The position numbers and the translations under genes are program-made. 64,000 nt of DNA from contig CP003083.1 of assembly GCA_000306725.1 (NCBI GenBank), forward strand, positions 186,001 to 250,000. Reading direction: 5' to 3'. This DNA comes from Methanolobus psychrophilus R15. Lineage in GTDB: Archaea; Halobacteriota; Methanosarcinia; Methanosarcinales; Methanosarcinaceae. The notes beneath the pieces are model-generated. The model had not been told where the DNA came from. It saw nothing but the letters and a program-made list of their open reading frames with translations, and did no database searches. Positions 28,176 to 29,433 of this stretch are shown one piece after another. Numbering within the stretch: position 1 is the first letter of the stretch; each line of letters opens with the position of its first letter.

Positions 28176-28409
28176 AGAGTTATCAGATCCATTGTATAGT
28201 CTTTTGTACACCAATATGATAACAAAGCCGGAAGTATTCGAAAAAAATAATTCTTCCAGCTCTCTTTTATTATGCCGGAATTTCAGTGCATAAATGAAAG
28301 TTCAATGTCATTGAAATTAATAGGTTGTTTAGAAAATCATCCATTGTGCCATCTTTAGCCGCGATGCAAAATTAATCCAGGTTTAGGTTAAATAAAAAAG
28401 GTGACTTAC

Positions 28410-28645
28410 TATGTGTTGCGGGCAGTGGGGTACCCGCAAACGTGGGAGTGGATTGATGAGAGATGTTGGGGAACATCTCGGATTCGTAAGGAGAGAGGCG
28501 CCTTAAAGCGTGGTGGCTTCCAGGCGCCTCATCCTACTACACAACCGTAAATGAAGACTTAAGGGATATTGGGGAGTATCTCGGGTTCGTAAGGAAAGAG
28601 AAACCTTAAAGCGAGGTGGTTTCCAAGTGTCTCACCTTATCCTTC
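28410..28645 (+). ncRNA. Candidate structured RNA with two tandem similar units
   Basis: Two units of about 74 nt, at 28461-28534 and 28564-28637 (period 103), share roughly 80% identity. Each begins with a GGGG-loop hairpin: GATGTT/AACATC in unit 1 and GATATT/AGTATC in unit 2, where base changes keep the pairing. Both then carry TTCGTAAGG and CCTTAAAGCG, able to pair as TAAGG/CCTTA, and a GGTGG.TTCC element. Unit 1 also has a GAGGCGCCT/AGGCGCCTC clamp. A GCGGG/CCCGC hairpin precedes them (28418-28437). No ORF covers the region, and neither unit resembles a riboswitch class I know. Strand is inferred from the downstream gene. A mobile or repeat origin is the alternative. Confidence 0.45.
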
Positions 28646-28869
28646 ACTGGTTCTACAAAGTCAAAACTAGTATAAAACTCATTTCCTCTGGCCGGAAAAT
28701 GCTTTCCTATACAGAAAATTGACTGCTGTTTTTTAGATGATCTTTACCTGAATGTCTTTTCTCATTTTTCTCAGCAGAGTATTCTGCATTTAAACGGACT
28801 TAGATGACATTATTCTTCTCTCGTAGTTGCGAACCTATTATATCAGGAAAGATATCATTTTATAGTTGT

Positions 28870-29433
28870 ATGATTGACAGGATATACATTTCCTATACTG
28901 AAAATGACGAAAACCTTGCGCAGGAACTGGCGCAGGCGCTATGGGCCGTGAACCTGGAAAGCTCATCTTCCATGTACAATAAGGTTCTAAATATTTCCAT
29001 GGCGCAGCGCATCCGTTTTGGTATCAGTCATTCAGATTGTATAATTCTCCTTCTTACCAGAGAAGGCGCCCTGTCACCGCGCGTCAATCAGGAAATCGGT
29101 CTGGCTGCCGCAGGTGGTGAGAATCTGTTCATTGTTCTTGCAGAGGAGGGTGTTGAGATACCCATACTACTGCAGTACATGTGTCCAATAGTGTTTATGC
29201 AGGATACCTATACGGATGCCCTGGGATACCTCATATATACATTGAGGAACCTCACAAAGTTTGAATGGCTCAGGATACAATGCCCCCACTGCGGGGAGGA
29301 GATGACCCAGTACATCACGCCACAAGAGGAAGTGGACAGGTCCATCCTGGCAGGAACTCAACTGAACACAATATGCAACTACTGTGAAAGCAAGCTATTT
29401 CTTGATCCCAGGACATTCAAACCTGTTCTGTGA
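28870..29433 (+). CDS. TIR-like domain protein with C-terminal zinc ribbon
   Basis: The start is MIDRIYISYTEND at 28870; the frame opens earlier at 28804 but those 22 residues look spurious. Residues 3-130 have the TIR/TIR_2 pattern: a DRIYISYTENDENLAQEL first strand and helix, SHSDCIILLLTREG, then SPRVNQEIGLAAA with a candidate catalytic glutamate. The C-terminal 55 residues hold CPHCGEEM and CNYCESKL, a four-cysteine zinc ribbon. Prokaryotic TIR domains are often NAD-hydrolysing immune effectors, but signalling scaffolds also exist. The tandem structured RNA lies about 230 bp upstream. Confidence 0.75.
   Translation: MIDRIYISYTENDENLAQELAQALWAVNLESSSSMYNKVLNISMAQRIRFGISHSDCIILLLTREGALSPRVNQEIGLAAAGGENLFIVLAEEGVEIPILLQYMCPIVFMQDTYTDALGYLIYTLRNLTKFEWLRIQCPHCGEEMTQYITPQEEVDRSILAGTQLNTICNYCESKLFLDPRTFKPVL

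Follow-up and report, generated by a model that had tools for sequence, protein, structure and literature searches.

A dispersed family of structured, probably cold-induced small RNA genes in Methanolobus

Positions 28405-28680 of the window, the whole 64,000-nt stretch of Methanolobus psychrophilus R15 DNA analysed herein, hold a single copy of a dispersed RNA gene family that is real, structured and multi-copy, absent from Rfam and previously uncatalogued; in genome coordinates, the window copy lies at 214,371-214,680. On balance, the copies are best read as multi-copy stand-alone sRNA genes that are regulated through an upstream box, probably in the cold, and whose products act in trans by means of loops and a linker that bind a common partner. 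Confidence in the parts of this reading varies: the RNA is very probably a stand-alone sRNA and is probably induced by cold, while a role as a decoy for the common partner, suggested by analogy, is an open contender that falls somewhat short of being probable.

Distribution of the family

A covariance model built from 17 units (R1) located 23 units in about 20 places of the R15 genome (3,072,769 bases) at E <= 4e-4. An earlier, sequence-only reading of this DNA had proposed a covariance search of archaeal genomes; a second model built from 94 units (R2) recovered the unit in 12 of 27 members of the genus Methanolobus and in none of the remaining 211 genomes of the class, to which stricter filters were applied. 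Nine of the 12 RNA-bearing genomes hold 7-36 units apiece, the other three (G079, G089 and G093) have only one or two, the match in G093 being weak (E 0.007), and at least 13 members lack the RNA; in R15 and its close relatives, each genome has some 5 to 20 loci with the RNA. An exact-core scan of approximately 85,000 genomes likewise gave matches confined to Methanolobus records, including M. halotolerans SY-01, isolate Soudan_28, and bin DJKA59_ANT-F21. A weak R1 match in another genus (G011, E 0.006) was not recovered by R2 and was treated as chance. Among the genomes searched, the family is confined to Methanolobus.

Rfam 15 returned no family over the element, either at the gathering threshold or at E <= 10, and together with the strong covariation described below this bears out the suggestion, made from the sequence, of a structured noncoding RNA of no known class. 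A viral or plasmid origin was rejected, as the viral contigs and plasmids searched contained no copy. At one R15 locus (L161, G000:C1:887553-), a shortened copy seems to be opposed by another, degenerate copy in inverted orientation, perhaps the trace of a recombination event.

Structure of the RNA

The window copy (Table 1) contains two direct repeats, 28459-28536 and 28562-28639, which are 79% identical across 78 nt and spaced by 103 nt. The two repeat units recognised in the sequence-only reading are thus present, but their proposed length of 74 nt was too short, the conserved unit measuring approximately 86 nt once its outer stem is counted. The RNA gene also takes in the hairpin at 28416-28439, the promoter region (28298-28394), and the 3' box. 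Relative to dinucleotide shuffles, the fold of unit 1 outperforms 200 of 200 (z -5.3), that of unit 2 is weaker (z -2.3), and the entire 261 nt reaches z -4.0. The second unit is optional, since two units were counted from match spans at 25 of 83 sites; at the window site itself, two relatives have a single unit, and a second unit has therefore been gained or lost in place.

Table 1. Features at the window copy and its neighbour, in window coordinates
Feature	Position	Strand	Basis
Upstream palindromic box AAGTTCAATGTCATTGAAATT	28298..28318	+	Family-wide promoter scan; kept in syntenic copies
Box-to-TATA spacer, with family-wide 18-nt periodicity of A	28319..28379	+	Autocorrelation
Promoter core GGTTTAGGTTAAATA, BRE/TATA-like	28380..28394	+	Core in 77/83 sites
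Predicted transcription start	28413..28416	+	Inferred from core position, 19-22 nt past TATA
Hairpin I, TTGCGGGCAGTGGGGTACCCGCAA	28416..28439	+	Folds; present at most sites, stems varied
Unit 1: hairpin II 28460-28479 (loop GGGG), linker, stem III 28495-28530	28457..28542	+	R1 108.4 bits, covariation
Unit 2: architecture as unit 1, stem III weaker	28560..28645	+	R1 90.2 bits
3' box with CTAGTATAAAA; TATAAAA 28671-28677	about 28660..28690	+	TATAAAA count against shuffles
TIR_2-domain gene, neighbour outside the RNA gene	28804..29433	+	PF13676

Each unit proceeds from hairpin II, capped by a GGGG loop, through the linker GGAUUCGUWAGGAGA to stem III, which includes the conserved stretch UUAAAGCGUGGUGGUUUCCA as well as an internal stem, and a weaker outer stem closes the unit; the stretch GCGUGGUGGUUUCC is also part of the family RNA. 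Across a 94-unit alignment fitted to the covariance model, pairing is kept in 95.9% of cells, two-sided changes occur at 15 of 21 pairs (6.9 in shuffles), and two-sided cells number 150, as compared with a shuffled value of 44.8 and no more than 18 when the partners are slid. The shuffles overstate significance because related copies are not independent, a weakness from which the slid controls are free, and an independent MAFFT alignment of 17 units agrees (22 two-sided cells versus 5.9). The GGGG-capped stem and the compensating changes that had been noticed in it are thereby confirmed over 94 units, and such two-sided stem changes indicate selection on the RNA. The loops, also singled out from the window sequence, are indeed strongly conserved (GGGG 88-97%, GUGGUG 94-98%); loop and linker columns as a whole are as conserved as the stems (88.0% versus 86.7% in paired columns), although the stems covary. 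A small peptide encoded across hairpin II (in the window, MRDVGEHLGFVRREAP) was considered and rejected: its frame is broken in many copies, what is conserved is therefore not a peptide, and the two-sided changes over hairpin II preserve the stem rather than the peptide.

Promoter and upstream box

The core GGTTTAGGTTA[AT]ATA lies upstream at 77 of 83 sites, and the extended promoter pattern has 21 matches in the genome as opposed to one in the control. Ahead of the core, 72 of 77 upstream regions have an above-threshold match to a palindromic box, AATTNNAATGNCATTNAAATA, versus 4 of 77 shuffled regions and 54 of 500 random stretches, a count that is optimistic because the score matrix was trained on the same sites. 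Spacing was left out of this training, and the distance from the box centre to the end of the TATA element takes the values 33, 51, 69, 87, 105 or 123 nt, within 1 nt, for all except five of the 72 boxes; the window box, centred 87 nt ahead of the end of its core, occupies one rung of this 18-nt ladder. In the DNA between box and TATA, A recurs with a period of 18 nt (z 8.4 by autocorrelation over 50 non-redundant upstream regions), as against z 0.1 at lag 18 in a distal control region. Perhaps a palindromic operator that may sit on any 18-bp rung upstream of TATA reflects a repeating protein array.

Homology between copies begins within the common promoter, and the same promoter and box are found at sites with differing flanks. 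As expected of stand-alone sRNA genes, the copies thus combine a promoter of their own, conserved independently of the flanks, with a conserved RNA structure. Past the last unit, TATAAAA occurs in 45 of 83 downstream regions (2.5 in shuffles); this 3' box may serve to terminate or process the RNA, or may act as a TATA element on the antisense strand. A 3' terminator hairpin was discarded as a candidate, the 3' region folding no better than its shuffles.

Related promoters occur elsewhere. In R15, L163 (G000:C1:2063434+) and L165 (G000:C1:2931284+) have the same pattern ahead of short ORF-like stretches in which CPEC..C..CGYW zinc-ribbon motifs are repeated, which suggests that other genes may sit under the same control. 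At L162 (G000:C1:2927993-), this promoter is followed by a hairpin-I-like start and then by a 54-aa ORF (MKSLKTWEEISDIDYDG...); the ORF is accompanied by an SD-like sequence and has no NCBIfam match. The interval G000:C1:2922149-2941402 places an RNA copy (L012), the zinc-ribbon locus L165, and L162 between two cold-induced TRAM genes. Genus members without the RNA (L168-L175 and L177) have, in most cases, a full box-like palindrome near a gene for an MfnD-like ATP-grasp ligase. In the three readable upstream regions of TRAM cold-shock genes, the box score stays within background, and these genes were dropped as candidate co-members of the regulon; given these promoters without a box and the ligase-adjacent palindrome in relatives that lack the RNA, the box is not proven as a cold signal.

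Relation to published cold-induced sRNAs

The main text of a transcriptomic study of M. psychrophilus R15 describes "nine highly conserved" cold-induced intergenic sRNAs, reports that their promoters are preceded by a conserved motif termed the "cold box", and places R15 transcription starts 19-22 nt after TATA (Li et al., 2015; PMC5378194). Those sRNAs resemble the present RNAs, as the paper describes them, in organism, intergenic location, several near-identical copies, and a motif upstream of the promoter. The organism was matched through gene positions: four TRAM genes and fibrillarin, taken from two papers on R15, sit at the locations expected from their gene numbers, and of two Hsp20 genes one agrees with Mpsy_0869, whereas the other does not agree with Mpsy_0075. 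In the present family, too, the promoters of near-identical putative sRNAs are preceded by a conserved motif, compared with the "cold box" by description only. By the same descriptive matching, the nine sRNAs are likely to belong to this family, which has thus probably been partly seen before, as cold-induced transcripts. Unlike the present account, the main text of the paper neither gives a structure nor describes a family beyond R15 or an 18-nt ladder (PMC5378194).

Proposed mechanism

Each copy would be transcribed from its own TATA promoter into an RNA of approximately 150 nt when it has one unit or 260 nt when it has two, with a box-binding regulator in control, probably under cold conditions. 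The RNA would then act in trans, the least certain part of the scheme and one that we infer, with the invariant loops (GGGG and GUGGUG) and the GGAUUCG linker as putative binding sites for one common partner. That partner would most likely be an RNA-binding protein, titrated in the manner of bacterial CsrB or RsmZ, and the high copy number, together with the optional second unit, would raise the dose. The family does have the recurrent hairpins and the invariant loop motif expected of a decoy of the CsrB/RsmZ type, and the decoy reading is preferred because of the invariant loops in all copies, the duplication of the unit, and the gene dosage.

Alternatively, the copies may be sibling antisense sRNAs, also stand-alone, in which the loops or the purine-rich linker would base-pair with mRNAs, or with 16S rRNA at its 3' end, and thereby alter translation. 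Pairing is the mode of most studied trans-acting sRNAs, the invariant single-stranded stretches could serve as seeds, and SD-like purine stretches occur in the sequence; nevertheless, identical loops in all copies would imply common targets, and unit duplication and high copy number fit dosage better, so this explanation is considered unlikely.

Genomic context and remaining alternatives

A non-autonomous, MITE-like mobile element that happens to fold, which the sequence-only reading had named as the alternative that would undo its proposal, would account for the dispersal of the copies, the many copy lineages within one genome, and the tandem and decayed copies. The two-sided stem changes and a conserved promoter that extends a variable distance upstream speak against it, and it is judged improbable because several sites are syntenic between species and the searched viruses and plasmids are devoid of the element. 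The window site is instructive in this regard: the gene order (a 441-aa gene, the RNA, the TIR gene, a winged HTH gene, a hexapeptide protein gene, and PMSR) is syntenic in relatives, and unit 1 is 88-93% identical between species, compared with mostly 42-65% for intergenic DNA outside the promoter and RNA.

A leader or riboswitch for the downstream gene, here the TIR gene, could be envisaged from the window, where, as in G085, G077 and G072, the TIR gene follows the RNA on the same strand (at a further site, L059, the examined stretch ends before the TIR gene, which sits further along that genome). The genes that follow the other copies, which were checked as originally proposed, speak against a tandem riboswitch. 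Among 83 sites, with neighbours taken as ORFs of at least 80 aa rather than curated genes, the next downstream gene shares the strand of the RNA at 31 and lies on the opposite strand at 51, and for the next upstream gene the counts are 42 and 40, respectively; the neighbours include FilR1-type regulators, cation efflux, BrkB-like and PGF-CTERM proteins, and no downstream gene common to the sites was found, nor is there a consistent same-strand gene directly downstream. In G075 (L081), moreover, the RNA is directed away from the TIR gene. Given such variation in neighbours and orientation, the RNA is no riboswitch or leader of the TIR gene; leader function is refuted as a general role and is now a most improbable account, although the promoter and the hairpin-I-like start ahead of the L162 ORF imply that leader use may exist elsewhere.

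The idea of an RNA-linked TIR immune or signalling unit is not supported, as only one of the roughly 20 R15 sites has the TIR gene next to the RNA and adjacency varies between species: G097 (L154) has the TIR gene without an adjacent RNA, and G054 has the TIR gene and lacks the RNA. One point in favour of a link is that the TIR_2 gene is found in 9 of 27 genus members, nearly the same set as the RNA-rich ones, a co-occurrence that common descent can explain. No relatives of the TIR gene were detected in the viruses searched, and its candidacy as a catalogued defence protein was dropped since PADLOC gave no match.

R15 has an unusual expansion of 33 FilR1_middle regulator genes, many of them clustered, and the 3' flank in the window resembles, on our reading of an alignment, the decayed 3' end of a FilR1-type gene. 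A functional pairing in which such a regulator binds the box or the RNA, the two forming co-duplicated modules, would fit the 13 of 21 RNA sites that lie within 2.5 kb of one of the 33 genes (0.91 expected; 7 of 5000 circular shifts reach this count) and the 22 of 83 sites that converge on a FilR1-type gene downstream, but it is very improbable, as part of the association stems from co-duplication in which flanks are shared, many sites, including that in the window, have no intact FilR1 neighbour, and FilR1 orientation is not constant.

Significance and comparison with known systems

A conserved structure has been defined for few archaeal sRNAs, and the present fold is backed by covariation. 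The family offers many natural copies with a common promoter signature in an organism for which temperature transcriptomes have been published, and hence a concrete route to post-transcriptional regulation in a cold-living methanogen; the spacing ladder of 18 bp is unusual for a promoter and lends itself to direct testing. A more far-reaching proposal, rather doubtful at present, is that of a lineage-specific archaeal decoy-RNA system, with tens of near-identical G-rich hairpin modules per genome and an 18-bp ladder operator, in which an RNA-binding protein would be titrated under a cold switch.

Three known systems invite comparison. The Methanosarcina RNAs sRNA154 and sRNA162 are also intergenic methanoarchaeal sRNAs with stem-loops; they are single-copy, and R2 finds no unit of the present family outside Methanolobus in the class. 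The RNA repeats of type III toxin-antitoxin systems similarly consist of tandem structured repeats ahead of a gene, whereas the present repeats are dispersed, with varied neighbours and no common toxin gene. No CsrA is known in archaea. Bacterial CsrB and RsmZ share with the present RNAs the repeated hairpins, the conserved G-rich loops, and a dosage set through repeats and paralogs; they differ in having another loop motif and one to a few loci, as compared with about 20 in R15, where titration is putative.
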